Positions 7,870 through 52,858 of a stretch of 64,000 nt of DNA are shown piece by piece (positions within the stretch are counted from its first letter, which is position 1; every line of letters begins with the position of its first letter). Position numbers and translations under genes: made by a program. Below the pieces are notes generated by a model. That model was given only the letters and a program-made list of their open reading frames with translations, made no database searches and was not told the DNA's origin. Source of the DNA: Geosiphon pyriformis (lineage: Eukaryota; Glomeromycota; Glomeromycetes; Archaeosporales; Geosiphonaceae); assembly GCA_016748015.1 (NCBI GenBank), contig JAAOMT010000261.1, positions 237,272 through 301,271 of the forward strand, written 5' to 3'.

Positions 7870-10150
7870 AAATTAATTTGAAATTCAAACATAATCAAAA
7901 CAAATTAAAAACAATAACCAAAATTAAAAAAGTAAAAAATAAAACATGTTTGATTACCAATCTGAAAAATCATATTATTGATTTTAAAAACAGTACAACC
8001 AAAAAAAAAGTTAATCAACTTGGTCTTAAACTTATTATAAAACAGAATAATTTTATTTTAATTTATTAAGAAGAAGATTTTAACACTATTTTTACTTATT
8101 AAAACTGACTAATAATTTAAAACAGACACAACAAAGCCTATTTTATTAAAGTAAACAACTATATATTATTAAACATTAACAGGCTTAGCACAATATAAAC
8201 AACTTTACCAAATACACTAAAAGCTGTCTTAATATTAACAGCAAATATACTTAAAAACATATTATATAACACAACAGCAGCAAAAAAGAAATCAGACTCA
8301 GAAACCACCAAAAACTTGACAATTTTAAGAGTGATTAAATAAACAAAGCTCATAAGCTCAATTAAAAAAGCAGTTTCTACAAACTCTTAAGAAGCAAACT
8401 CTATATAAAAAAGCTTTATATTGTTTTTTGACATTGATTTTACATCTAAAAAACCATATACTAACTAAAAAACAGTCTTAATATAAGTCAATTTGATCTT
8501 AAAAATAGCATTAGATATTAAAGTAAAGGCTATTTATTTAATAAATTTTTGATAACTAGAAATAATTTTTCAAGTACTATTAGCAACAACACCAAAAACC
8601 AGTATTACAGATGATTATTTGGGGTTTCAAAACAAATAACAAACCCATAACTTAGTACTCAATAGCTAATATGATTGGTAATATCTGAAGGTTTTGGATT
8701 GAGTTCTTTGTATAATAGACAGAGATTTATTGGCTAATGTTTGTGGTATTTCTTAAGTAGTTTTCCCAATTTCTGTTTTCAGCATGATAGCCAGTTTATT
8801 CTAACAGTTGTGCCTTTTTGGTAAGTTATCTGTTAATATATATCAAAGTTTTACTCTTATTGCTGGGTCTTTTATCAGGTTATTCTTAATATTAGTAACT
8901 CAGTACTTGATCTTTCAATCAATTAGTAAACAATAAGAAACAAAATAAAATAAATAAAATAAAGAAAATTAAGCCAAAACAAAAACAATTAGTATCCTAT
9001 TAATAGCCATGATTAAGAACTATTGTTCCAACATGATTAAGTATTAGATATTATCAATATAAAGTGTTAAATATTATTAACATAAAGTGTTAATAATGAG
9101 AAGTTGAGTCAGATTTTCAATTGAGTAATAATAACATGAATGGTAGAGTAATAAGTATGTTTTATTTAATATTTGATGATTTTCACTTCTGTTAATAGTA
9201 ACTATCCTTGAAGTAATGAAATTGAGATAGAAATAAGATTTTTTATTCTGAGTAAAATCTGTTTTTTCTTGCTTCTAATGCTATTACTATATATACATAA
9301 TTCTCTTTACATAAGAAATCTTTTTTTCTTTGCTAGATTTTCTAAAACATTCAGGATTTCCTGAAAAATTCTCAACTTTTCTGAAATATCTTGGATTTTC
9401 TGAATAATTCTGGATTTCTTGAAACATCTAGAATTTTCTGAAAAATTCTCTTTTTCTCTTTTTCTATTCTAATTGGCTAATTTATAGTCATGTATTTTTC
9501 TCTTTTTTGATTATGTATTATTTTTCTCTTTTCTAAGTGTAATACCAGTATAAGAAATAAATCAGTTTCTATTTGATTAATTCAGTTCTTAAAAACAAGT
9601 AATTTAATAAAAGATTATTGTTTTGTTTTTAAAACCAATAATAATTTGCCAAAAAAAACTACATTTAGCAATACAGTTAATGATTAATTTTGGCTTATTT
9701 TAGATAACTTATTAAATAATACAATAAAAATTTCATCTAAAATCTTATCTAAAACCACAAAAAGATTTAATGTAACAATAACAAAAGTAAATAACTGCTT
9801 CTACTATTTAAAATTCTTGGTTTTTTTGGCTATTTTCAAAAAAGTAGTATTAATAATATTAAATATAATAGCAATAATTAGAAAACCAACTTGTTAACTA
9901 GTCTGTTATTAAAAACTTTTGGACTTTTGATAAGAGTAAAGACAACACTAAAACTAATTCAAATATGTCTTTTTAAGAGAACTTTGACTGATAAAAAACC
10001 AGTTAAAAATAGAAAAAATGTTTTAACAGTCACTAAAAACAGCTTTTTACTATTATTAGCTAAAAAAAAGCTTTTAAGATATTTTGTTTAATTGCTTTTA
10101 CAACAACAAAAAACTTGTTTAGTTATAACTTTATGAAATATTAAAAAAAA
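7870..10150. repeat. Decayed repeat, copy A of a direct duplication
   Basis: Several segments reappear in the same order and orientation about 3.1-3.6 kb downstream: 7935-8030 matches 11480-11570, 8600-8850 matches 12065-12270 (both share TATAATAGACAGAGATTTAT), 9650-9780 matches 12905-13020, and 9955-10090 matches 13030-13180. No intact frame remains. The parent element type cannot be told; a transposon relic is the simplest reading. Confidence 0.65.
9340..9450. repeat. Degenerate short tandem repeat inside copy A
   Basis: About four to five imperfect units of roughly 25 bp built around TTTTCTGAAA and GGATTT follow each other. The matching place in copy B (about 12670-12820) holds a different imperfect array built on ATATGC and ATTTTT, so this part of the element seems prone to tandem repeat growth. 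Confidence 0.45.
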
Positions 10151-11469
10151 GATATTAGTTGCAGCTTTTTTACTCTTTGTTTTAATCATAATTATAAAAT
10201 TAAAAAGACAAAGAATTTCTTTATTATTTAACTTAATTAATATATAAATATAATATATATAGGAATATTATAAAAATTAATAATTATTTACTTAAATAAT
10301 ATTAATATATTTTTAATTATATTTAATAAATATTTGTATTATTTGTAATAAGTATTTAAATAACCTAAGAATACTAAATAAAAATTTAATATTAACAAAT
10401 ATTTAAAATATATTATTAAAAAAATAAAATTTAAACAAAATAATAAAGATTAAAAAATTTTTAAAATTAATTAGTTTATAAAAATTGAATATTATTAATA
10501 ATTTGTTAAAATATTTTTAAATATAATTTAATATTATATTAACTTTTTTTTTATATTTTAACAAAATATGTTCAAACATTATTTAATACAATAAACTAAA
10601 CTAAATAATTTAAATTAAATATAAATCATGTATTTTTTATATATAATTAACTATTTAAATTAATTAAAATATTAAGCTAAATCAAAAAAAATCAAAAGTA
10701 AATTTAGTTTACTAAGTTTTATAATAATATTATTCAAATTTTTAGAATTAAAAAAAAACTTACTAAAAAACAATTTAATTTTTTTAATATTACTTCTAAC
10801 TTTAAAGTTACATATTTATTACAAAGTAATTATACAGTTACATGTTTTTTTACTTAAAGAAAGTGCTTTAATAATATTAAACTTATTTTTATCTATATTA
10901 TTAAATTCAACTTTAGTTTTAAGACTAGCAAAGTTTTTAAATATATTAATTAAAAAAAAACAAAGTTTTTAAAAGCATTAAGCATAATAAGCAAATTTTT
11001 TTTAATTTTGTAATTTTTGTGTATATTTTCAAACAAAAAAAAATAACCAAAATAATCAAGAAACTAATAAGTTTAATAATAAATTTTATTAAATTAATCA
11101 GAATCTTAATTTGTAATTCCAAAAACTTTAATTTAGAATCAAATTTAAGATTAATAATAAAAACAATTAAAAAGACAACATAAAAAAAAATCAAAAAAGT
11201 AAAAACTTTAATATAAAATTTATTCACTAAAAATAACACAAAAAACTTAAAACCAATAAAAAACTTAACAAATAACTTAAAAAAAGAGGTAAAAATATTA
11301 TATAATTTTTAAATAAATATTCTAAACTTTAATATTTATAGTAGCAATAATATTTAGAAATTTCTTACCAAATATAATATTTGTACAAAGTTTTAATTTT
11401 AACTATAGTAAAATATAAAAACTTATAAAAATTAAATATTATAACAATAAAGTATTAATAATAATAAAA
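10151..11469. other. AT-rich spacer between repeat copies
   Basis: Extremely AT-rich sequence with no supported gene. Long open frames on the minus strand near 10946-11239 are low-complexity (I, L, F, K rich) and are expected by chance at this base composition. Confidence 0.6.
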
Positions 11470-13290
11470 CTTAGATAAATAAAAAATAAAACAGATATAA
11501 TTACCAATTTAAAAAATTATATTATTGATTTTAAAGACAATATAGCCAAAAAAAATTGATTAATTTGGTTATAAAAAAATATATTAGGAAAAATATTATA
11601 AAATGCAATAAAAATAAAGAAAAAAAAACCAGAAGCTACTACAGAAGTTTTTGTAATCTTAAGTGTAAAAAGAAAAAACTACTAATTAAAACTTTAATAA
11701 CTATAGCCAAAAAAAATTTGAAAGCAAAATTTACATAAAATAACTTAATATTGTTTTTTAAAACTGACTTAAGCCAACAAAATAAAACAACAAATAAAAC
11801 AAAAAATTAACAAAAGCCAATTTAATCTTAAAAATAAAACCAGACATTAAAGTAGAAACTATTTATTTAGAGAATTTTTAAAAATTAGAAATTATTTTTT
11901 AAACACTATTAAAAATAGTACCAAAAAACAAAAAAAAAGAAATTGCTTTAATTTCTATTTGATTAGTTTGATTTTTAATATTAAATAATTTAATAAATTG
12001 TTTTGCTTTTAAGATTAGCAATAATTTATCAAAAAACATCATAGTTAATAATATAATTAGTAATATTATAGATGATTATTTAAGATATTAAAACAAATAA
12101 CAAACTCATAATTTGGTATTTAATAATTAATAATACTATTGATAATTTTTTAAATTTGTGAAATTTTTTGTATAATAGACAGAGATTTATTTGGTAGTTG
12201 TTTTTTGAATTTTTTTTTAGTGTAAAGTCTGGTTTAATCTGACAGTTATACTTTTTTGATAAGCTATTTTTAAGTTTTTATCTTTATTTTATGAGTTTTT
12301 TACCAGGTTATTCTTGATATCAATATTTTAATACTTAATTTTTTAATTAATTAGTACACAATACAAAACAAAGGAAAGAAAATAAAAGAAAAATAAAAAA
12401 TAATAATTTTAATCCAATAATAAAAATGACATAAATTAAATGATAAAGCAATAATTTTATTTGATATTTAGATAATTTTTTTTTAAAATATAAAAAATTA
12501 TTTTTTAAAGAAAAAAATATGTTATGAATATTTATTGTTAACTAATTAAAAATTTGTTTAAGTGTAAATTGAATATCTTTCTCACTTTTAATATTATTAT
12601 TATATATATATAATTCTTATTATACGAAATTTTATATATTTTTATTTTTTTTCTATACTACTTTCTAGAATTATGTTTATTTCTAAGCAATATGCCATGA
12701 TTTTTTGAAAATATGCTCATTTTTTATAAATATACACATTTTTGAAAATGTGTTGTAATTTTTTGGCAATATGCTTATTTTTTGTAAATATGCACATTCT
12801 TAAAAATATGTTTATTTACTGAATATTATTTTTTTATTAGACTATTTTTATAATCTATTTTTTTTACTTTTTTTTGTATTTTTTTTTATAAGTAACAGTA
12901 GTTAATTTTGGCTTATTTTGGAAGATATATTGTTATTATTATTATCTATATCAGAAAAAAAGCTGATTGTTATTAAAAAAATTTTATTCAAAATTTTATC
13001 TAAAATCATAAAAAAATTCAATATAATAATATTAAGATTAATTCAAATATGTCTTTTGAAAAAAAACTTTGATTGAGAAAAAACCACTAGTTAAAGATAA
13101 AAAAATGGTTTAAAAATTATTAAAGACAGCTTTTTACTACTAATATTTAAAAAAAATATAGCCAAAACATTTTATTTAACTACTTTAATAATAAAAAAAC
13201 ACTTTTTAATTAAAATTTTATTAATTACTATAAAAAAAGTAATGTTTAAACTTTTTTTATTTTTTGTTTTAGTTATAGTTATAAAAATAA
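11470..13290. repeat. Decayed repeat, copy B of the direct duplication
   Basis: This is the second copy of the element seen at 7870-10150, with the same segment order but shorter and even more AT-rich. Where the copies differ, B often has A or T where A has C or G, as expected from long-term C-to-T decay of methylated DNA. No coding frame survives. Confidence 0.6.
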
Positions 13291-14406
13291 AAGAGAAAAA
13301 AGGTTTTTTTAAAATTTTTTTATATTAGTTATTGATTAAAAATTTAATATATAAATAAACAAAAAAACAATTTAATTATTTAAAATATTATTTAATAAAA
13401 GCTTTAATAAAAAATTTATAGTAATATTAATATATTTAAAATAATATTTAAAGTTATTTATTTATTTTTTATTAACGCGTTTAACGAGTGTAGTCCAAGT
13501 TATTTATTATATATTAAATTAAATAATTAAGAATATTTAATAATATATGCTAATAAAAGCTTAAATATAATTAAAAAAATCATAAAACCATTAAATTAAA
13601 TTATTTAATAATATATTAAATAGTTTTAAATTGAAAATATTATTTTTGCCAACTATTTAATTTATATATTAACTATAAAAATTAATATTATTTTAAAAAT
13701 TATTACTAAAAAAAATATTTACAATAAAATAATGTATTATAACAATTTAAATTCAAAATACATTATAAAAAAGACCAATATTAACAATTTATTAAGAATA
13801 AAACAAACATAAATCATATTTAATAAACAGAAAAATAAATAAATAATTATATTAATATTTATATTAATATTCATTAATATTTTAATTTAAAAAAAATTAT
13901 TTAAAAAAAACAAAAAAGAATTTAAATCAAGTTAAAAACTATTTTATTTAAAACAATATATTATATTAACAAATTTAATAAAATTAAAGCAATTATTAAA
14001 AATAAAAACAATTTTGTTTAATATATATTTAAATTTAATAACAGATAAATTTATTAAAAAACAATTATAAAAAAATAAAAAAACATTATTATTAGTTATT
14101 TGTGTATTAAAATATAGTTTAATATATAAAAAGTTATAATTTATACCAAAAAATTAATATTAAAACTATAAAACCATTAAAACCAACTATTGTTAATTAC
14201 TATTAAAAACAACTAATATATTATAAAAATAATGATTTATTTTACCAAATAGTTAAAAATAAAAATAAATAAAAAACAAACTCAAACTTAATAAGATTAA
14301 AAATTAATTTATTAATATAAGTGTTTAAAAAAGTTATTATTAGACCAAAAAATATATTTTATAAATAATATATTAACAAAATACGCCAAAAATTTAAAGT
14401 AAAAAG

Positions 14407-14440
<34 letters not shown>

Positions 14441-15883
14441 TATTTACAAACAAATAAATTAATAAAATATAATAATTTATTATTTAAAACATTAATCAAA
14501 TTAACAATATAAATCAAAAAAATATAATTTATTTATATTATTAGTTTTATTTATTTATTAAATAATAAGACAAAATATTATTTTAATTAATATTATTAAT
14601 AAAACCAAAAATACAAATATATTTAAATAAATTAATAACAAAAATAAAATTTGTAATTATGTTTTTAAAAAAACATATAACTTAATAAAAACATAAAAAA
14701 TAGAAGTTAATAATAATATTATAATATTACAAAAAAATACAATATTAAAAATAAGATATTATTATATTATATCAAAGTAAAAAAATAAAAAAATAAATTT
14801 TATTTTTACTAAATACTTAATAATAAAATTTACAAATTACAATTAAAAAACAAAGTTTTAAATAAAATAATATATAATAATTACTTATATTATTTAAACT
14901 AATTAATTTTAATACAAATATTACAATTATGTATTTAAGTATTATTAATCAAATAAAATAAAATTCTATAAAATATAAAACTAATTATTATTATTAAATA
15001 CAATATATATTAAAATTAATTATTTATACAAAACTAAATATATAAAAACTATTAAAACATAATAAAAACTGACAATTAATTATAATAAAGCAAAAATTAT
15101 TAATAATATTTACATAATTATACAATTATTATTTAAAATATTATAAGATAAAAAGTTAAAATTATAAATAATTATAAATAACAAAAAATTAAATATAAAA
15201 ATATTTAAATGTCTAAAAACAAAGATTTTAAAATAATTAAACCAGTTTTATCTTATAAAATAAGAAAACAACAAAACAATTATATTAAAAAATAATTAAA
15301 AAATATTAAATAAACTTATTACAATAATATAAATAAAAAAAACTTATAACAATTTAAAATAATTGAAAAAAAAATTTTTTATTAACATAATATTATTATA
15401 ATATTAAATATTTAAATATAATTTAAAACAATATTTAAAAAAAAAAACAATTTAAGTATATATTATAAAGTTGTTTATTAATTATATATTAATTTTTAAA
15501 AATACAGTAAAATACTATTATATTTAGTTATAAAAATATTAAATTAAAAAAATAACAATTTAACAATTTAAAAAATATAAAAGCAATAATTAATATAATT
15601 ATAAAACATAATTTAATAAATAATATTATAAATTTTTTTTGAATTTTAATAAAACTTAATTTTTTAAAAAAAATTATTCTAATTAAAATACAATAATTTT
15701 AAAGTTAACTAATTAGATATTAATAATATAAATAATATAATAATAATAAAAATGCCAAAAAACCCAAATATAATAATAAAAAAATAATTAGTAATATTAA
15801 AATATTTTATATTATTAAAAAAATATATATATAAATATAAATAATAATAAATAAAAAAAATAAACAAGAAAAAAATTATAAAT
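13291..15883. other. Extremely AT-rich gene-free block
   Basis: Very few G or C bases. Contains simple repeats, for example a TTA run at about 14409-14440. No gene, RNA gene or repeat family could be recognised. The LINE at 15884 has inserted at its right edge and is far richer in GC, so it is clearly younger. Confidence 0.65.
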
Positions 15884-15963
15884 AAAAAACTTCTTTTTTT
15901 CCTTCATCCAAAATTCTCAAAAAAGAGTCAAAAGTTTTTTCAAAAGAAGTTTTTTACCATTTA

Positions 15964-17799
15964 GTACAATAAATCAAAACTGTTCTTTGATTACGAAGCC
16001 ATTGTTGGCCCTGTTATTGCTGTTATAAAGAAGACTATTAAAGTTTCTGGTTCTGAGGATGGTTTCAAGGTGGTTGTATCGAGAAAGAAGAAGAAGAGAG
16101 GTGTATTGACAGAGGGTATTGATAATAAAGGAGTTGCTGCTGAAGCTCCTAGTGCTCATTCATAGAGTTCTAAGACAGGTGACACTATTGAGTCTGAGAG
16201 TATTAACATGGAGGAAAAGTGCTTGGTTGAAGAAACCAGTGTTGACTATGGTGAGAGTAGTGCTTTTATGAAAGGGGATCCTAATCAAATGCTAAAAAAT
16301 TTGCATGTAAAGACCAAAAAGATGTTAGGGAAGCCTCTGGGTGTGATTGATTATGGTAATATCAATACAAATAATGATGTATTAAACAATTTCTTTCTTC
16401 TTCCATCTTCTCTACCTATTAAATCATCTGTACAAGTGCCTATTTGTAAATCTTTTGCTTTAGATATTAATCTTGTGGCTATTGCTGGGAAGTCTTCTCA
16501 AGAAAAATTGAGTTTTATTAAGAAAATTTTTTCAAGTGTGAATGGTTTTGGGAGGGCTTCTACTCTCTCAAAATTTGGTGGAGTTATTCATGTGACTTTC
16601 ACTTCAGAAAAGGCAATGATTGTGGTGTTGTGGTAAACACTGATCTTAAGCATCTGGTAAACAATCATACAAATCAGAATATTGTGATTAAGGAGATTCC
16701 TGTTGATACATCGATTGAGACGGTGTGTGCAGTTGTTTCTGAATTTGGGGTTGTTGTGTTGATCAAAATACAGTCGGTAAGACTGTGGCAAAAAGCAATT
16801 ATCACTTTGGGAGATTTCGATCAGGCTGATTTGTTGGCATCCAAGTGGTTTATTCTTATTGAGAAAGATGCAGTCTGAGTGGCCAGAACTGATGTTGATA
16901 AACAGACTTGGAATTCTAGAGATGAGTTTAAGGCATTGTTTTACACTTTTCTTGTGGGAACCAATGCACATGATCTTTGGGATTTTATTGGTTTAGTGAG
17001 TGAAAAAACATGTGTCATCAAGTGCAATTCAGTTAACTACACTCAGACACATTGCACCACAGTGTGTTTTGAGTTTGAAAGTAATCTGAATCAGGCTCTG
17101 GCCAACACTCCGGTGATAAAAGGTGTCAGTTTCCATTGGTTGTGCCTGTTTGCTGCCTTGTGTTCTTTTTGCAATTCTCTTGGTCACACATCTAGGAATT
17201 GTAAATCAGCTGGTGTGTTTTCAAGTCCGAAAGGCAAAAGGGCTCCTCTCTTGGCTCAGGATTAGTTTAGATTGGTGAAAATTTATGAAAGAAAGTCTGC
17301 TCCTGTTTCTTGTCCTTTGGCTTTTGGTGAGAAAACTTGGGCATTAGTGGTTGGCTCTATTCTTTCAGGCACTTCTTTTGGATACAACTCTCAGCTTGGT
17401 TCCATTGAAAATAGTAAACCTTTCTTTCCAGTAGTGAATGATTTGGAAAAACATTTGGTTAGCATTGAAAGCAGTCTTGTTAGCCTCGTGGAACAAATTG
17501 GTAAGTTGGCTAAGAGGTTGAAATCATTCATGCTGACAGTTTCCCAGCTTAGCCCTGGATGTCAGCTGCCGGTAACCCTCCCATTGCAGAATCAAGGGGA
17601 GGATATAGTGATGGGAATGGGTTTGAGTGATGCCACTAGTGACAAGACTGCTGCCATTTCAGGTTCAACTGCCTTACCTGAGGTTGTGAAATTGGAAAAC
17701 ATGTTGGAAGGTCTCTCTGCTTTGGTCATGAGCCTATCAGCACACTTAGATGGTTTGGCTTTAGCAGGTGGTGCTTCTTCTTTACCTCTTTCTCAATGA
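15964..17799 (+). pseudogene. LINE ORF1 (nucleic-acid-binding, CCHC knuckle), broken
   Basis: ORF1 proteins coat the LINE RNA. The clearest mark is a zinc knuckle of form C-x2-C-x4-H-x4-C (CSFCNSLGHTSRNC) at about 17167-17208. Upstream is a basic segment (SRKKKKRG) and a moderately conserved region that is also present in the 58.6-kb copy. The frame is interrupted by TAG near 16163, a frameshift with loss of some bases near 16615-16635 (compared with the 58.6-kb copy), TGA at 16876 and TAG near 17263. The last part, 17272-17799, has heptad-like hydrophobic spacing. ORF2 begins just downstream. Confidence 0.75.
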
Positions 17800-43474: not shown

Positions 43475-45386
43475 ATGTTTAGTGTTCAAAGTTCGTATAA
43501 AGTCGTTCCCTTAGGTCTTTTGGCTTTTTCGAAACGGCCGATAAATTTTCTAAATCCCATATCACGTTTTACTTACTCAACAATGTCTTTGTCACAAGGT
43601 TGGTTTTTTTTTTATCTAATTTAAATTTTTATAATTTAAATCAATTTTCTTTTGAACCCCACTGTTTCAAACAAAACTTGCTTAAAACTTATATTCTACT
43701 TATCTTTGTAAAAGGTAAAATTCTCACTTACGAGAAAATTAACCCTCAAATCAAACAAGTTGAATATGCGGTACGAGGTGAATTAGCCATTCGTGCGGAA
43801 CAAATTAAGACAGAAATTGAGAAATTTGGGAAAGGACGTTTCCCATTTGAAAATGTTGTCAATTGTAATATCGGTAACCCACAGCAACTTTCTCAACCAC
43901 CAATCACATTCTTTCGTCAGGTGGGCATGATCCTTTGTATATTGCAGATTTCATAACTTGAGATAAAATTTTATCTCATACAAATTTTACCATCCTAGGT
44001 CGCGTCTCTCGTCGAATACCCGGATCTCTTGTTAACGGAAAATAAGGAAAAAGTTAAAGCTTTATTCCCCGAAGATGCTATAGAACGTGCAAGGACATTA
44101 TTGAAATATGTGGGTAGTGTTGGTGCTTACTCGCATTCACAAGGAATATCATACATCCGGCAGGACGTGGCAAAATTCATTGAAGGTTAAATAATTAATT
44201 TTATCAATCAACTAAAATGAATTTAAACTTAATTTTAATTGTCAATCTAGAACGGGATGGGTTTCCCTCGGATCCCGAGGTTATATTTCTCACACAAGGT
44301 GCCTCATCTGGGGTTCAAACCATAATTCAAACAATTATTGGCCATCCAAACGTCGGTATTATGATTCCTATTCCACAGTATCCTCTATACACCGCAACAT
44401 TATCATTATACAACGCAAAACCTGTACCTTATTATTTAATTGAAGAAGAGGACTGGGGACTTGACATAAATGAACTTTCTTCTTCTATAAGAAAGGCACG
44501 TGCAGATGGAACTGATGTTCGTGCATTGGTCATTATTAATCCAGGAAACCCGACTGGTCAATGTCTTTCTGAAGAAAATATGAAAGAAATTATTGATTTT
44601 TGTCACAATGAACGCGTCATTTTACTCGCAGATGAAGTTTATCAAACAAACATTTATGAACCTTCTACCAGACCATTTCACTCCTTCAAAAAAGTTCTTT
44701 CCTCAATGGGGGAAATTTATAAAAATTTTGAACTTTTTTCTTTCCATTCCGTGTCTAAGGGTATGATTGGAGAGTGTGGGCGTCGCGGGGGATACTTTGA
44801 ATGTACAGGAATCGATCTTAAGGTGGTTTCACAGATATATAAGATTGCCTCCGTTAGTTTGTGTCCTAATGTTCAAGGACAGATTATGGTAGATTTGATG
44901 GTTCGACCACCAAGGCTTGGGGATCCCAGTTATGAATTATATAATAAAGAATATACTTCAATTTTTGAAAGTCTAAGACGAAGAAGTAGAAAATTGGCCA
45001 ACTTGTTTAATCAATTAGAAGGCGTCACGTGTAATGATGCTCAGGTATTGTTGACTTTTCTACGTCATATTCTACGTTTACACTTTCTCTCAATATTTAC
45101 AACTTTGGGTCTTTTTTAGGGGTCCTTGTATCTCTTTCCAAAAATTTCTCTACCCCAGAAACTAATTGCCGCAGCACGCGAGGGAAATAAACAACCAGAC
45201 GAATTTTATTGTCTTGCTATGTTAAATGCAACTGGTGTTTGCGTGGTACCCGGAAGTGGATTCGGTCAAAAGGATGGCATATGGCATTTTCGAAGTACCT
45301 TTTTACCTCCAGAAGAATTGTTTGATGATTTTTGTATGAGAATTCGCAAATTTCATCAAGCTATACTAGAAAAATATCGAAACTAA
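43475..45386 (+). CDS. ALT1: Alanine aminotransferase, likely dual-targeted
   Basis: Transfers the amino group between alanine and 2-oxoglutarate using PLP. Five exons (43475-43598, 43715-43920, 43999-44185, 44251-45044, 45120-45386) give 525 residues. Family marks: NIGNPQQLSQPPITFFRQV, YSHSQGISYIRQDVA, LTQGASSGVQ, INPGNPTGQCLS, LADEVYQ, SVSKG with the PLP lysine, ECGRRGGYFE and the C-terminal WHFRSTFLPPEE. The first ATG starts a 36-residue leader rich in Ser, Arg, Lys and hydrophobics without acidic residues (MFSVQSSYKVVPLGLLAFSK), typical of a mitochondrial presequence. A second in-frame ATG at 43583 (MSLSQG) would give a 489-residue cytosolic form, which is the usual enzyme length. Tandem ACTA repeats begin right after the stop. 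Confidence 0.94.
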
Positions 45387-45530
45387 CAAACTAACTAACT
45401 AACTAACTATTGATCATAAAAATAGCTTAAGAAAATATTATTAGTAAGAATTAAAATTTCTAGCCTTTACGAAACAGGCATGACCCTTTTTCCTACTCTT
45501 TGTAAAATTTAAAAGAACATAAGCATATAT

Positions 45531-45564
45531 GGGGCGTGCTGCAACAAAACCAGACAAAGTGAAC
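45531..45564. repeat. Left terminal inverted repeat
   Basis: 34-bp TIR reading GGGGCGTGCTGCAACAAAAC at its outer end; exact reverse complement of 52691-52724. Preceded by ATAT at 45527-45530. Confidence 0.95.
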
Positions 45565-45630
45565 ATTTAACGTCACTCAGGCTCGAATGATTCAATGTTG
45601 GAATGAATTCTTCAATCTTCAGTAACTTTC

Positions 45631-46275
45631 TTATTTCAATCAAGGTCACTTTCTAACCTCAATTTGAGTGCTCTGTTGAGAATTCAATTTTTCTAACCGA
45701 GTTTTTAATCAAGCAACTTCTTCCTTATAAGATTCTATTTCGTTAATCAGGTCTTGAGGAGTTTGTTTTTTTAATCTTTTTACTTCCGCCTCTAACTCTT
45801 TTATTCTATGTGACAATTCTTGCTTTTGCCTTTTATTTCACTCCTCAGACTTTTCATGAAACTTAGCAATTTCTTCTCTTTCGATTTTTAATGCTTCTTT
45901 AGTAGCAAGTAATTCTTTCTCTAATTCTTTGGTTTTATTTTCTAAACGAGAAGTGAAAGACTGAGCAATTAAAGTATTTTCAGAAAATGGTTGAGCAGGT
46001 TTATCTTTAAGCAACTCACAAAAACAACCTCTCCTATTCCTCATCAATTTACCACACTTTTCACAATAAGGAAGAATATTGTTTTCCAAACCCTCTTTAC
46101 AAGTAGCACAGATATAGGCAATATCAACACAGTCACCTTCTTTATTATTAGCCATTATTTCATGAGTACTAATATTAAGATCAAAACCAATCTCAGCCTG
46201 AAAATTTAACAAACAATAATTACAATCTTGCTTATCTCCTTCTGCTACTTCAAGAACTCTATATTCTAATTTCAT
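45631..46275 (-). CDS. Zinc-ribbon/coiled-coil protein with in-frame TGA codons
   Basis: Unrecognised family. ATG at 46275 (MKLEYRVLEVAEGDKQDCNY) lies 3 nt after the stop of the preceding gene. The N-terminal third has paired cysteines (CNYC; CATC; CEKC; later CFCE) suggesting a zinc-binding ribbon. The rest is a long Glu/Lys/Leu coiled coil. With the standard code it stops at TGA 45838; if TGA is read as Trp the coiled coil continues through TGA 45838, 45709, 45646 and 45640 to TAA 45631, giving 214 residues. There is no TGG in the gene, so every tryptophan would be TGA. The coiled-coil periodicity continues beyond the first TGA, which shows that the downstream part is real coding sequence. 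Gene context suggests a partner of the transposase; function unknown. Confidence 0.65.
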
Positions 46276-46278
46276 AAA

Positions 46279-47049
46279 TTACTTATTCTTTTGTAAAATA
46301 TAAGCATGAAACTTCTCTTGAACCTTTTCCTTAAATTCATGAGCTTTTTCTTTTGTTGTATTTACTAACTTTTTAATTTGTTGAAATTTCTTAGGTTTAG
46401 GCTCAATTAGTTTAGTTAATTCAACTAACTTCTCATCCTTGGCTATTAAAATCTTTTCTAATTCGTGTATTTTCAATCTCAAGTCTGTTATAAAACCATC
46501 CTTTAGCATTTTCATTTCAAACACCCTTCGTTTATGCCATTCTTCAGATACATCAACAAATTCCAAATGATTTTTTTGTTCTAATTCTAGATCTTTTTGT
46601 TTCACTTCTAAATCAACAATATTCTTTTCTAAAATAGCATTCTTTTTATCTAATTACTCATTCTTCTCAGTTAATTCATTCTTCTCGATTTGTAAACTCT
46701 TAACTTCTTTATTCTCTTTTGCTCATCAAGACATTGAATTGTGATGCATGTAAATAAGACGAACAAAGCTTTTTCTAAACCCTTTGTCTCCTAAGTGTTG
46801 TAATTCACGAGGGCGAAGTCAAAAATAATCTGTAACTGCTCTTATATGTGATTCATTTGGATTCCGGTTTAAACTACCAATTACTTCTCTTATTTCCTCT
46901 TCGGTTAAAATATTATTTTCATTAACACTAAATCTTTCTTTTAGTTTGCTGATTGCTTGGTCTTTATCAGCTAGTTGCTTTTTCAATGTTTCTATTTCGT
47001 TTAATAATTCTTTGTTTGCTTGCTGTAGTGTTTCTAGAATATTTACCAT
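46279..47049 (-). CDS. Coiled-coil protein with in-frame TGA codons
   Basis: Unrecognised. Begins MVNILETLQQANKELLNEIE at ATG 47049, a coiled coil, followed by a compact segment (RPRELQHLGDKGFRKSFVRL) and more coiled coil to TAA 46279. One frame runs through TGA at 46819 and two consecutive TGA at 46723-46728; read as Trp these give DYF-W-LRPREL and NSMS-WW-AKE. A single TAA at 46654 also lies in frame, inside a repetitive ELTEKNE/LDKKN stretch; it may be a true mutation or the end of a shorter protein of 131 residues. One TGG is used (SEEWHKRR). It sits 104 nt after the transposase and 3 nt before the next gene, an operon-like spacing that is unusual for this fungal genome. Confidence 0.65.
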
Positions 47050-47152
47050 GGTTTATTTTTATTAAGTATATAAATAATTTTACTTTGAAAAGCGGGGAAA
47101 GACAGCAATATTTGTGAAAAACAACCTAGACTTAACAACATCGAGTGACGAT

Positions 47153-48946
47153 TTATTCATTGTCATTATAGGTTGGTCTTGGACAAGTAGTATCCTTAAA
47201 TTCATCTCGGACAAATGGGCGAACGTGGTGATAGAGGTATTCTTGGCGTTTCAGCTCCATAGGAGGAGGTACCAGCTCCAGAAATGACAGGGCCTTGATT
47301 TTTTCTATAACTGTTGAAGCCTCCGATTTGCCTATTTTTAACAGTTTGAATTCCTGGAAAGGTCCATTAGCAAATTCTTGAGCTTTGACAACACCCAGCT
47401 TAGCACTAGTAAAAAGAAAGTGCTGAAACTTTTGCAAGCCAAGCAACTTCTTGAAGTGAATTTCCAAACTACTCAGGATATCAAAATATTGAAAGCCCTT
47501 GCTACCATTATAACACCAAGCTTTATTTAGTCCAGTAATGCTAGACTTTTTCACTACATCTACAATGTGATCAACACAATCTACTGTGGTTTTGCGATAG
47601 AGTCTTTTGATCAGACCAAAACTACCATCACATTTGAATTTAGTATGGCCTGGAACCATGAAGTTCAATTTAATACTTTCATAATAATCAGCAATTACCA
47701 GGTACAGGTAAAACCAAAGAGTGGTATTGTTTTTGTTTTGTCCGCCTGCATTATCACAAGTGATTTTTAAGTGCTTTTCACCCTTATTTAATTGCTTTAT
47801 TCCATCAAAGACTAGACTAAGGGTGCCATTAGGACCTTTTCCAAGCAGTTCATTCTCATCCAGCACATAATTAATTTGCTCTCGTACTGCTTCATCCTGG
47901 ATACCAAATAGGTGCACTTTACGAGCACTAAGATAATACACCTTACCAATTTGTTGGTCTGAATGAGGCACATGGACGTTTTGGGCTCAGTCGTAACTGT
48001 AATGGGCCACCGCGTCAATGCTGCAGTATGGTGCTTTGTCTTTCAGTACAGAATAATTTTGATCGACGAGTTTTTTTTGCTCTTCTGCCAACTTGGTATT
48101 TTTGTTATAATAATTTCTCTCTAGTTTGGCTTTGGCCAGATGCTCTTTATATTTCTTTAATAAATCTTGGGCCTCTTCCTCTTTACGAGCTTTGAACTGT
48201 AAGTCATTTCGCAAATGCTGGCAAGTATCGCATAAATCGGTCCTCGGACTCATGATTTGAATATACGGGGTTAACTGGTGCCATAATTTGCAGAATGCAT
48301 CATACTTGAGGTTATGCAATTTATTATTATCCTCCAGGCCGGCTAAAAAATCCCGGTGAACAGACCTGTAGCTCATTTCTGCCGGTAGAAAGATAATTGA
48401 TAGGGTGACTCGATTAACATTTCTTACTGGGCTAGGTAAGCCGTGAACTTCGGCATAATTTAGCAAAAAATTCTTGACGGCAGTAGCAACATCAATATTG
48501 ATAACCATCCTGGATTTTCACTGTGGCATTCTTTTTACATTACCATGGACCCGCGGTAGAAGACCATTCTTTAACAAATGATTTCGAATGTTTTCAAAAT
48601 AATTGCGGCCAATGCCAAGCATATTGAGGTAAGTTTTTTGGCAAATTGGAGTGCTACGATTTCAGCAGTAGACAGTTCTCTTATTGACGCGAGCTTTCTT
48701 TTTAAGACGACGGCTAGTATTGGTCACTCCTCCATCCATGGTCTTGAGTTGGGCCACTAAAAAGATGTCTTGTTCGGGTTTTGTTAGCGCTTGAAAATCT
48801 TCCCGCAGTTTGGCAAATTCTTCCTTGGGCAACTTGGGTGAGCAACCGCAACCACATCCTACTCCCAGGAAATAGAGAGCTTTTTCGTATTCATTCATAA
48901 TTATGTCGTCTACCATATATATATATTTTATATATATATTACGCAC
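47153..48946 (-). CDS. DDE-type transposase with three in-frame TGA codons
   Basis: Likely moves the TIR element by cut and paste. A single frame of about 598 codons without frameshift. Order: a Cys-rich N-terminus (GVGCGCGCSPKLPKEEF), a segment resembling a helix-turn-helix (NRSTPICQKTYLNMLGIGRN), PRTDLCDTCQ followed by a coiled coil, then the catalytic core: first acidic region CSIDAVAHYSYD, second ITCDNAGGQNKNN, third FMVPGHTKFKCDGSFGLIKR. The CDNAGGQNKN and PGHTKF blocks recall a widespread eukaryotic transposase-like family (DUF7869-like); this is from memory. TGA occurs at 48662, 48518 and 47987, each where Trp fits (for example YD-W-AQNVHVPH right after the first catalytic block). TGG is also used. 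The true stop is TAA 47153. The likely start is the ATG at 48898 (MNEYEKALYFLG). Confidence 0.75.
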
Positions 48947-48966
48947 AGTTTGTCCGGTTTTGTAAA
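48944..48966. repeat. Internal TIR-like sequence
   Basis: CAGTTTGTCCGGTTTTGT just upstream of the transposase gene closely resembles CACTTTGTCTGGTTTTGT of the right TIR, in the same orientation. It could be a former right end of a smaller element of about 3.4 kb (45531 to here) or a transposase binding site. The similarity fades beyond this core. Confidence 0.4.
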
Positions 48967-49026
48967 ATTTCTTCCACGTGTATTAAAGAATACATAGGAC
49001 TATCCCTATATAAATGCGTACTTTTA

Positions 49027-49338
49027 CTAATTATATTTTCGTTTTTTCCTTGATCCGTCAGATGTTTCTTGTAATTCTCGCTTCTTAGAATTTAATTCCT
49101 GACTTCGTCCAGAAATATCTTCTTCGTAAGATGGATTTATGCTTCTATTAGAACTGTCTAATTGTTGGTAGATTTCGTAGGTAATTCTCTCTTTATCCAA
49201 ATATTCTTGAATAGCTTTGATGTCAAGTAGTTTGAAAATGTATGGGGCAATTTTTTCACCCCGCTCTTTTTTCAAAATGCTTCTAATAGCACTGTAGTTT
49301 TTCGGTTCCATAGTGGATCTAATGTAAATTAGTTTCAT
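49027..49338 (-). CDS. Small basic protein of unknown function
   Basis: A 103-codon frame (a better start is the ATG at 49311, MEPKNYSAIRSILKKERGEK) ending at TAG with a basic tail KKRKYN that could act as a nuclear localisation signal. No family recognised. It lies between the TIR-like core and the intron-bearing cargo gene, on the same strand as all genes in the transposon. Might be an accessory transposon gene, or part of the cargo gene's 3' region. Confidence 0.4.
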   Translation of the reverse strand: MKLIYIRSTMEPKNYSAIRSILKKERGEKIAPYIFKLLDIKAIQEYLDKERITYEIYQQLDSSNRSINPSYEEDISGRSQELNSKKRELQETSDGSRKKRKYN

Positions 49339-49417
49339 ATAGTAGATAGTCGTATATATCTAGTTTTTATTACTTCCAACAAAGCTAAATAGGGTTGCAA
49401 ATATCTTCTGCATTTGT

Positions 49418-52401
49418 TCAATGATGCTGTTTCCGCCTCGTCAACCCACCCCCCAAGAATACATGCGTAATTTTTCCCTTGTCACTTAGAGAAAAGGATT
49501 CTTCTCTTCGTCTGCAAATAAGCTCGGCTTCGATGTGGTTTCCGTTGACAACTTGGGAAAGTGTGCAGAAGGCAATTAAGAACACTTTCGGCACATTGAA
49601 AGTTGTGTGAGACACAGAACAAAACTCACCTTCCTTGAAATCCGTTTTTTGCTTGGTGTGGCAAACTCTGGTGGGCCATTGTCCACCTGTATTCTTGCTG
49701 ATTCGAATTGTTCCCGCTCAGCCCTCGCTTTTATCGCCTTGAACCACGAAATAGTGTTACGCATGATGTTCTGTTCAAGGAAAGAATATGGGTGAGTGAT
49801 ATTCCGAACGGATGAAAAAAAGAAAGATACGAAATGTTACCAACTTTAGTTCGCAACATTGCACGCGCAACGTCGATAAAGCCCTCAAGTTGGTCGTAAG
49901 TAGTTGGTATGTTGAATTCAGCCATTTGCCGTGACGCGTAGAAGCCAGCACCAACGTAAACGACCAGAATTACGCGGATGAAAAAAAAGGAAGAAACAAA
50001 TCCAGGCATTATTAGCTTGGTGAATGCTTTAAGCACTGGTTTTGTAACCGCTCCACCGCCCGCTGTGGAAATGTCCTTTAGAAGTGCTTTGTGCATGTCT
50101 CGTAACGTTTTTTGAAGTTTCAAAGTGTCGGAATCAATCTTCGCTTTGTTATCGGGTTTGGACCCGGCACGTTCGCACATAGAAAATTCCTGTCCCCATG
50201 ATTTGTTGGAAAGATCGTGCCGCTGTCAAAAAGTAGCTGTTAGTAATCCGAACATTACCAATAATAATAATGGTATATTAAGCGAGCATACCGTAAACAT
50301 CCAGTCTACATGAAATCCTTCTGCGTTGTCGGGGGAATCCAAAGCACTCGCTTTGCGATTACGTGACGCTCGGGATACCATTTCCCCACTAATCCGGTCA
50401 ATGATATGAACAAGAAGCTAATTACGAAGATCAAGCAAACCCGCAGGAAGAAGATAGTGCTTACAAGTGTTGATCAGCGACACCCTTTAGACAAGAGAAG
50501 ATATGAGATTTGACAAACATATCTATATCCCGTTCAGAATTATGGCGTGATGCAACTGATTCCGAGATCCATTCGCACCTATTGGGTGTATAAAACTTTA
50601 AATCAAAATTACGCGTATCCATGAGTGTACAATGTACTGTAAAATGACAAACATACGTATAACGGAGAAGTTCAAAAATATATCCGACATCGTCATGTGT
50701 ACAGTCCTCCTCTTTCATATCAGCTGGAGATGGTGAAGTTGACACCTCATCTTCGAACAAAATCTGGTCCTTTTTTTTGGTCCCCACAAGTTTTTGGGCT
50801 TCACATAGAGCTCCCCGGATCCCTTCAATCTTCACGAGATTACCAATTGATTTCAGTTGATTCGAATCGAGCTAAATTCAAAATGTATTATTAGCGAAGA
50901 GTAAGAAAAAATACGGTAGGTTTTAAACATCATCGTTTTACCTTGCCAAGCATTTGCAGATAGCTCTCTGGCAAAGTTTCCACCACCATCAAATCCTCCT
51001 TCGGGTTCCCATTGTTGAGTGCGGAAGCAAACACGGCATTCAATTCTTCAAATTCCGAAGAAGAGAATTCGGAAACAATGGCTGAATCTGATACGTCAAT
51101 AATCCTCCAACACAACGCCCTATTGTAAGAATAGAAAATTACATAAGGGTTCACCAGACAAGGCACAAAAAGCAAAACAATCGGTATTTACTTTGTCGCT
51201 GCTTCTGACTGAGGGGTATTGGATCTGAGTTTGGCAGCTTTGGTCAACCAAGATGGCATCGGCAAATCAAACTCCCATTTGAGCGAGATGGTATCGTCTA
51301 CTTGAACAGACTGATTTGTGCGGACATCGGTAAATTCCAAGTGACATTGGTTTGGATTAAAATCAACTCTTGAGCCCTTACAGTTTTGGAAGTCTCTAAT
51401 TCCACTTCGTGAACATGAAAAATATCATTACAAGCCATGCCTTTACCGTCCTCAGATGAATGCAAGCCACAGCATTCTTGGCTGTCTTCAATCGTATCCA
51501 GGGAACGTTTTGTACCAGATTTCTATAAGTGGATATGATGAGAATTGTGCACAAGATTGACCTACACATTAACATCGCCATTAGAATTATTCAGACCAGT
51601 TTATTGTTGGCATCTTCCAACACTGTCGTGACCGCTGTAGTGGTCCCCCGAGCTATCGTGCGAGCTATGTTCATCTGCGACACAAGGAATTATTAGCTAC
51701 GCAGAAGTAATAATACCAGAGCACTGAATTACTACAGAGACAAGAAAAGCTGTAGACGCGATAAACCTTGTCAGATTCCAGTCCGGAACCCATGAGAGTT
51801 GATTCAATATCATCCCAAAAGAGCCGGACCTTTAGATATTGACGACGATGGTCCTCCATAGTTGTTGGTAATAAAGAGAGGTACGTAAGTATGTACACCA
51901 GAGAAGTAGTATAGGGGAATAAATTGGCATTGGGCTGGAGGCTGACAACAACGAGCACCAACGGACAGCCAGACCATAAGGTGGGCAACCGCCAGATGCC
52001 CACCGTAGTTGTGTGCACAAATCGGTTTTGAACCAGACTTGCGATATACGACGTGCAAGAGGGTCAGAGCGCAATATAACCCTCCTAGCCGGATAACCCG
52101 TATGGAGCCCCCAACCAAGTGCAACGTAGACGATAACTCAAAATCTTACCTTGAACTTCTGTCGGAGCTCAGTAGCAGCCGCCTTTATTTCTTCCGAGTC
52201 GTCATTTTGAAGTTCCTCCAGATTTTTTAAAAGTTTGCTAGCTTCCCTTTGAAACGAGGAACTGAAGTCGTCTTGTTGTCGGCGGTATGTGTAATACCCG
52301 ATAAAACTATAATCTTTTGCGGGGATAATACGGAAATACGAGATAGAACTTTTCGACATTGTATATAGTTGTGAATTTTCACGGTTCATAGGCAACGTCA
52401 C
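49418..52401 (-). CDS. Intron-bearing cargo gene of unknown function
   Basis: A multi-exon gene inside the transposon. The first exon starts at ATG 52401 or 52359 (MSKSSISYFRIIPAKDYSFI) and ends at 52150 with donor GTAAGA. Further exons include VRLFWDDIESTLMGSGLESD, SDSAIVSEFSSSEFEELNAV, a segment with NFDLKFYTPNRCEWISESVA and SERDIDMFVKSHI, a hydrophobic stretch (LIMPGFVSSFFFIRVILVVY), and the last exon ending RKQHH before TGA 49418. A clear intron (GTAACA...GAACAG) lies at about 49779-49841 and another (GTGAGT...CCCAAG) at about 49560-49633. Not all junctions could be fixed, notably near 51370-51420, so the exact protein is uncertain and it may be damaged. No domain recognised; a nuclease-like fold is possible but unproven. 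Confidence 0.5.
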
Positions 52402-52690
52402 TTAAAAACAAATCGCCAAGCCACAGGAGTAATTCCTGTTGGGCAAAGTTTCTAGTATTATATTGAACTCCTTCAACCAAACCAATATCCCAATGATATC
52501 AATGCTATTGATCAAGGTTGATGAAATGCTAAAAACTGAAACTGGAACAAACTAGGCAACAGTTTGGAGAAAGAGAGAGAAAGCAATTAAGTCGAATATC
52601 ACCAAATTGATTCCTACTGTGTTAGTAACCATGATAATAACAGCATGACAGTATTTTTTTTAAATAAAAAAATAATAGATGATATCATAA

Positions 52691-52724
52691 GTTCACTTTG
52701 TCTGGTTTTGTTGCAGCACGCCCC
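52691..52724. repeat. Right terminal inverted repeat
   Basis: 34-bp TIR, exact reverse complement of 45531-45564, followed by ATAT at 52725-52728. Confidence 0.95.
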
Positions 52725-52736
52725 ATATTACAACCG

Positions 52737-52785
52737 AATTTTGAGGGGGGTTGCTTTACAGTAAAGTCCTGAACCCCTCAAAATT
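52737..52785. repeat. 12-bp perfect inverted repeat upstream of IPK1
   Basis: AATTTTGAGGGG at 52737-52748 pairs with CCCCTCAAAATT at 52774-52785 across a 25-base loop, and the loop itself contains the palindromic CTTTACAGTAAAG. It could be a hairpin in the promoter or a relic of a small transposon. Confidence 0.6.
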
Positions 52786-52858
52786 TGGTACAAAAATTGA
52801 TGACTTGATGGGGTTACTTATTTTCGGGACTTTACGGTACGAGTGATGTGAGAATAAA

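Follow-up and report, generated by a model that had tools for sequence, protein, structure and literature searches.

A transposon family in the nuclear genome of Geosiphon pyriformis encodes tryptophan with UGA and probably has its home in endobacteria

DNA of endosymbionts resides in the host nucleus in Wolbachia-type insertions, and in Pack-MULE-like capture a mobile element carries pieces of host genes. Both features would be combined in a 7.2-kb transposon (positions 45531-52724) that we describe here from a 64-kb stretch of the genome of the fungus Geosiphon pyriformis (the window; part of contig C309 with 568,603 bases; genome 124.7 Mb). What sets it apart from these systems are its terminal inverted repeats (TIRs) and target-site duplications and a standard-code gene that stands beside genes in another code. 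Gene transfer from fungus to endobacterium was reportedly found by Naito 2015 and Torres-Cortes 2015. Such transfer is also described for Mollicutes-related endobacteria in PMC10507103, where these endobacteria are annotated with translation table 4 (UGA = tryptophan). In contrast to these known cases, it is here the nuclear DNA that has the bacterial code, and it has it on a transposon and in many copies. A search of the open-licence literature retrieved no earlier report of such an element, and no word starting with "transpos" occurs in the main text of either PMC10507103 or PMC11423566. We consider it probable (roughly 0.74) that the transposon family is at home in endobacteria that read UGA as tryptophan and has entered the nucleus of the host repeatedly.

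An earlier note on the window, made from the sequence alone, had described three intronless genes on the minus strand with ten in-frame TGA codons. All ten were found in place: 48662, 48518 and 47987 in gene 1, 46819, 46726 and 46723 in gene 2, and 45838, 45709, 45646 and 45640 in gene 3. Its count of one internal TAA and no TAG also held; each frame terminates with TAA. Stop included, the lengths are 598, 257 and 215 codons (previously about 598, 257 and 214). The longest run free of TAA and TAG comprises 597 codons, whereas 500 sequences simulated from a first-order Markov model of the region did not exceed 221, and the occurrence of ten TGAs among eleven internal stops has a probability of about 1e-5 from base composition. 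The three genes thus stood, but the TIRs, the 7.2-kb extent of the element and a further gene within it, gene F, had been missed. Stronger evidence than the frames of the window is the recurrence of TGA at the same tryptophan columns in many diverged copies.

Gene 1 encodes a DUF7869 protein. Thirty-eight copies were aligned to the protein of the window (without L035, which is the L031 locus fetched twice), and five conserved tryptophan columns (95, 143, 222, 320 and 411) were scored; column 477, which is tryptophan only in some copies, was counted in neither group. The TGAs of the window copy fall at columns 95, 143 and 320. Over all 38 copies, including the window, the five columns contain 86 TGA, 48 TGG, 11 TAA, no TAG and two other codons, the remainder being gaps or uncovered. 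At least one TGA is present in all 35 copies that have a tryptophan codon in these columns; three of the 38 are without one. The 15 best-kept copies, defined by at least 450 covered codons and at most one TAA or TAG, have 46 TGA and 26 TGG at the tryptophan columns and only three TGA, two TAA and two TAG among their 8,325 other codons. Because this definition itself disfavours TAA and TAG at the tryptophan columns, the full set of 38 copies gives the fairer comparison. A DNA tree was built for 30 copies after removal of the tryptophan columns (weak support at 12 of 27 inner forks); it requires at least 20 switches between TGA and TGG (2, 4, 7, 4 and 3 by column). Across many copies within a single nuclear genome, TGA and TGG are interchangeable at tryptophan sites. 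The counts back the earlier suggestion that this block was coded for, or shaped by, a system with UGA as tryptophan and now sits in a nuclear-type locus.

One rival explanation is ordinary decay of a standard-code nuclear transposon, with TGG turning into TGA at random or through mutation of the C-to-T type. Some copies are clearly decayed: eight contain 52 TAA, 16 TAG and 15 TGA off the tryptophan columns and 10 TAA, 14 TGA and 10 TGG on them. Only four of the 15 best-kept copies align in a single piece, the others being interrupted by frameshifts or large gaps. However, TGG to TAG and TGG to TGA are the same kind of change and equally easy, so that the complete lack of TAG in 38 copies argues for selection that accepted TGA. 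Ten of the 11 TAA at tryptophan columns belong to the eight decayed copies, and all 11 are one step away from TGA. Moreover, TGA is retained at identical columns in copies whose synonymous divergence (dS) is near 1. Control elements of the DDE_3 family from the same genome (150 of 240 candidates scored) show mixed stops, with TGA as the only type in 13 of 68 interrupted matches as compared to 15 of 29 for DUF7869 (Fisher P 0.003); actin was uninformative as a host control because its introns add stops. The earlier note had taken sister copies with TGG at these sites, and with TAG and frameshifts equally common, as the sign of decay. TGG is indeed present and frameshifts and gaps are frequent, as expected of nuclear decay, but TAG occurs in none. 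On these grounds we rejected plain decay, which is the least probable of the explanations considered.

The copies are very probably integrated into the nuclear genome. Both TIRs and 4-bp target duplications are present at six loci (the window, L022, L023, L030, L065 and L066); the duplication is ATAT at five of them and the non-palindromic ATTT/ATTT at L023. Inverted repeats at both ends and a duplication of constant length are hallmarks of class II TIR DNA transposons. The TIRs of the family begin with GGGGCGTGCTGCAAC, and in the window they are part of inverted repeat I1, whose 49-nt arms are 90% complementary. Including the window's copy in each case, the TIR region has at least 40 matches in the genome (83 candidates), and DUF7869 is found at 35 places on 29 contigs. 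The flanking aminotransferase gene, apparently split by an intron (open reading frames (ORFs) 44217-45119 and 45126-45386), stops some 145 bases short of the left end of the element and shows the nuclear context. Endobacterial contigs fused to fungal contigs during assembly, an objection that the earlier note had raised and for which there are precedents in Mucoromycota (reported in PMC11423566), are highly improbable as an explanation: the TIRs and duplications at six loci, one of them with the non-palindromic ATTT, the spread over 29 contigs, the decayed copies and the lack of any bacterial DnaA match in the assembly (DnaA was found in 13 of 14 control genomes) all speak against it. Simple contamination was rejected on the same grounds.

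Nonsynonymous (dN) and synonymous divergence was computed under table 4 for the 105 pairs of the 15 best-kept copies, with saturated dS excluded from the ratio. The median dN is 0.125 and the median dN/dS 0.119, which is purifying selection on the table 4 reading; for the window copy and L022, dN is 0.075 and dS 0.94. In a second subfamily, the five listed pairs of at least 479 codons have a dS of 0.17-0.31 and a dN/dS of 0.10-0.19; shorter pairs with L042 gave 0.47-0.92, for which we have no explanation. Since purifying selection acts between the copies, they have mostly evolved where UGA is tryptophan. Among the closest pairs (dS below 0.06, mostly partial copies, seven with a defined ratio), dN/dS is 0.19-0.94 on few changes and near-neutral for several. 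This fits copies whose divergence arose under the UGA code and whose decay in the nucleus is confined to the most recent part of their history.

The accompanying genes also use TGA. Twelve stretches of genes 2 and 3 and of cargo, chosen as ORFs that are open under table 4, contain 57 TGA versus 10 TGG; the L023 stretch includes sequence beyond the conserved frame, with one TAA and one TAG, and homology of the L031 stretch to gene 2 is not demonstrated. Including the window's copies, gene 3 has ten matches in the genome, six of them with TGA as the sole stop type, and two matches were obtained for the first part of gene 2. The C terminus of gene 3 reads K[TGA]P[TGA]LK (first residue K or R) in L021, L022, L023 and the window. 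Its protein has 91 relatives, of which the four that are named are all fungal (two from Ambispora, one each from Geosiphon and Entrophospora), and 13 of 18 aligned relatives terminate in W[PS]W, although the records do not state how their TGAs were read. The element at L030 (5.2 kb, both TIRs), in which no DUF7869 match was seen, carries a HIT-domain gene (L030:4244-5551, minus strand) with 15 TGA and no TGG. The encoded protein has four relatives, from jgi or ena, and was the sole match, under the cut-off, in a search of NCBIfam.

A different picture emerges for gene F, which fills the right half of the element and, from its exon-like pieces, would be spliced. Its relatives are on 17 contigs. 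Four of the six places inspected are linked to TIRs: in addition to the window, L022 holds gene F inside the element (35-54% protein identity to the window), at L077 it adjoins gene 1, collinear with the window (about 67-71% nucleotide identity), and at L079 it is near one partial TIR; for L078 and L080, no TIR was found within the stretch fetched. At the tryptophan positions of the window's gene F, the 21 cells of the relatives comprise 18 TGG, no TGA, one TAG and two other codons. Under the standard code, the pieces give a dN of 0.23 and a dS of 1.08 for the window and L079, and 0.28 and 1.34 for the window and L077. Gene F bears the mark of standard-code selection. A TAA in at least one piece of L077, L078 and L079 weighs against a working gene. 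Pfam has no family for it; one piece matched below the cut-off. The history of gene F differs from that of the transposase, L022 being near the window in gene 1 and far in gene F, and it looks like a nuclear gene family that was captured more than once.

If the fungus itself read UGA as tryptophan, by read-through or a suppressor tRNA, the element would be an ordinary nuclear transposon with odd codons. This would place residence and selection in one genome, and the standard-code selection on the neighbouring gene F is in line with it. But 15 UGAs in a single gene of L030, the preference for TGA over TGG by 57:10, the lack of TGA at the tryptophan positions of gene F relatives and the failure of ARAGORN to find a tRNA gene in the window or in 15 loci make it very unlikely. 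Gene F, apparently broken by introns and using TGG, is also the best hint of residence in both genomes. We regard as a tentative possibility, though a rather doubtful one, that the transposon is "bilingual", i.e. a TIR unit with UGA=tryptophan genes that function in the endobacterium alone and an intron-broken standard-code gene that functions in the nucleus alone, both under selection, which cycles between the two genomes. A transposase made in the bacterium may then act on nuclear copies and on miniature inverted-repeat transposable elements (MITEs). L065, L066 and other places carry such MITEs (about 420-540 bp), which have the TIRs of the family and are flanked by ATAT duplications.

Evidence for repeated entry comes from the phylogeny. 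The 30 Geosiphon copies used are not one clade in the protein tree, whose bootstrap had not converged and in which decayed copies sit on long branches: 11 changes are needed, at least six of which are forced by supported branches, and the copies are nested among metagenomic sequences and those of Ambispora, Diversispora and Gigaspora. A Mollicutes-related endobacterium of 721 kb is reported in G. pyriformis in section 6 of PMC13315312, citing Sorwar 2024. Since Mollicutes-type bacteria are reported inside Geosiphon, the element probably comes from them. Because no bacterial copy was found as DNA, we infer the home of the family and the direction of transfer, and likewise its route and activity. 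The lineage would live in a genome with UGA as tryptophan, most likely that of Mollicutes-related endobacteria of the Candidatus Moeniiplasma kind in the same cytoplasm. The transposase would be made in the endobacterium, and element DNA, perhaps with transposase bound, could reach the nucleus through the shared cytoplasm and integrate at ATAT-like sites. Nuclear entry would have happened many times; nuclear copies, unable to encode the full transposase there, would then decay.

Several observations weigh against this bacterial home. Two scans of genome contigs and three of viral contigs revealed no bacterial DNA copy; the earliest scan of each set used two patterns, one of which contained tryptophan and could miss TGA, and later patterns were free of tryptophan. 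One DUF7869 protein, with tryptophan at columns 320 and 411, is filed under Candidatus Moeniiplasma glomeromycotorum (longest contig 124,773 bases) and counts in favour of this home, but it is known as protein, has a short N terminus and is only 54% identical over 56% of gene 1; it sits on a long branch outside the group with the Geosiphon copies. Gene 1 mixes TGA and TGG and has a GC content at third codon positions of 0.38, compared to 0.17-0.33 in most stretches of genes 2 and 3. The position of gene F inside the TIRs is not explained by a purely bacterial life. Finally, a degree of nuclear movement or duplication is suggested by partial transposase copies that are nearly identical (99.1% over a stretch of 680 nt) and by MITEs that share the ends of the element (scoring of 40 of 66 candidates gave at least 11 non-self matches with a minimum of 200 bases); since the MITEs are only 79-89% identical to L065, no recent burst is apparent. 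These partial copies and MITEs, together with the near-neutral ratios of several of the closest pairs, would suit a scenario in which a UGA=tryptophan genome donated the element once or a few times long ago and the copies then spread in the nucleus, with transposase supplied in trans and no further traffic. This is unlikely: the pairs of at least 479 codons keep their low dN/dS, and nuclear copies interleave with copies of other origin, which indicates that most divergence arose under UGA=tryptophan selection.

If recurrent entry from endobacteria holds true, the genetic code itself marks the passage of transposons from a bacterium within the cell into the nucleus of its host, as a continuing process and not a relic, and individual codons can be used to test in which direction, when and how often transfers took place. 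Such entry also raises the question how the same transposase lineage can work in a bacterium as well as in a nucleus, and it would explain why recorded fungal gene models skip tryptophan codons. Scoring of the best 7,996 candidates yielded at least 40 protein relatives of gene 1, among them 22 fungal models, the Moeniiplasma protein and distant eukaryotic ones. Of the 32 tryptophan-column cells in seven aligned fungal models, 17 are skipped, as compared to 5.2 expected by shifting. The public models P0008, P0010, P0011 and P0015-P0018 seem to have false introns placed over UGA codons, so that the recorded proteins lack pieces around the tryptophan columns. The Geosiphon model P0015 best matches L042 (about 348 of 350 residues); gaps or its early end correspond to TGA in L042, and its tryptophans to TGG. 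The contigs of the models other than that of Geosiphon may be nuclear or bacterial; contamination of such assemblies is reported in PMC10507103 and PMC11423566.

Gene 1 is best read as a cut-and-paste transposase with a predicted RNase H/DDE fold. It matches DUF7869 (PF25273) with 62.1 bits (curated cut-off 26), the predicted structure resembles the integrase/mariner fold, and the candidate catalytic acids D319, D398 and D440 are all conserved aspartates. A sequence search of the PDB, which bears on IstA, Mos1 mariner and retroviral integrase, gave no match at E 0.01. Searches of a phage and a plasmid collection likewise gave no match for gene 1 or gene 3. The target of mariner is TA, whereas here it is AT-rich and comprises four bases. 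The domain is shared with DUF7869 proteins of eukaryotes, including distant homologues such as that of the insect Anthonomus grandis (22% identical); unlike these, the clade described here reads UGA as tryptophan and travels with additional genes. No paper found in the open-licence literature mentions DUF7869.

Table 1 Features of the transposon and its flanks in the window.
Feature	Coordinates	Strand	Remarks
Host aminotransferase class I/II, flanking	44217..45386	+	PF00155, E 9.6e-28 over 44217-45116
Target-site duplication ATAT, left	45527..45530	.	abuts left TIR; same ATAT abuts right TIR at 52725
TIR, left, GGGGCGTGCTGCAACAAAACCAGACAAAGTGAAC	45531..45564	+	inverted repeat I1; same ends in other copies
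Gene 3	45631..46275	-	Cys-rich N terminus and coiled coil; 4 TGA, 0 TGG
Gene 2	46279..47049	-	coiled-coil protein; 3 TGA; one TAA within the frame (46654)
Gene 1, DUF7869 transposase (putative)	47153..48946	-	PF25273, E 6.8e-17; first ATG 48916
TIR-like motif TTTTACAAAACCGGACAAACTG	48945..48966	-	directly upstream of gene 1
Gene 0	49027..49338	-	103-aa ORF, basic tail, without Trp
Gene F	49418..52401	-	exon-like pieces, GC about 42%; cargo within TIRs
TIR, right	52691..52724	-	partner of left TIR
Target-site duplication ATAT, right	52725..52728	.	abuts right TIR

The TIR-like motif was present in all five copies inspected, though weaker in L021, and is a possible operator for the transposase. 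Gene 0 recurs at nine further loci, with inverted orientation in L022. The long standard-code ORFs L031:108-1748 and L032:5434-7059 share 44% identity over 431 residues and look like a further repeat family that adjoins these elements. In the window, the interleaved inverted repeats I14 and I15 (52733-52839) abut the right end of the transposon and resemble a second small hairpin element. Positions 9001-16000 have a GC content of about 9-17%, well under that of the rest of the window.

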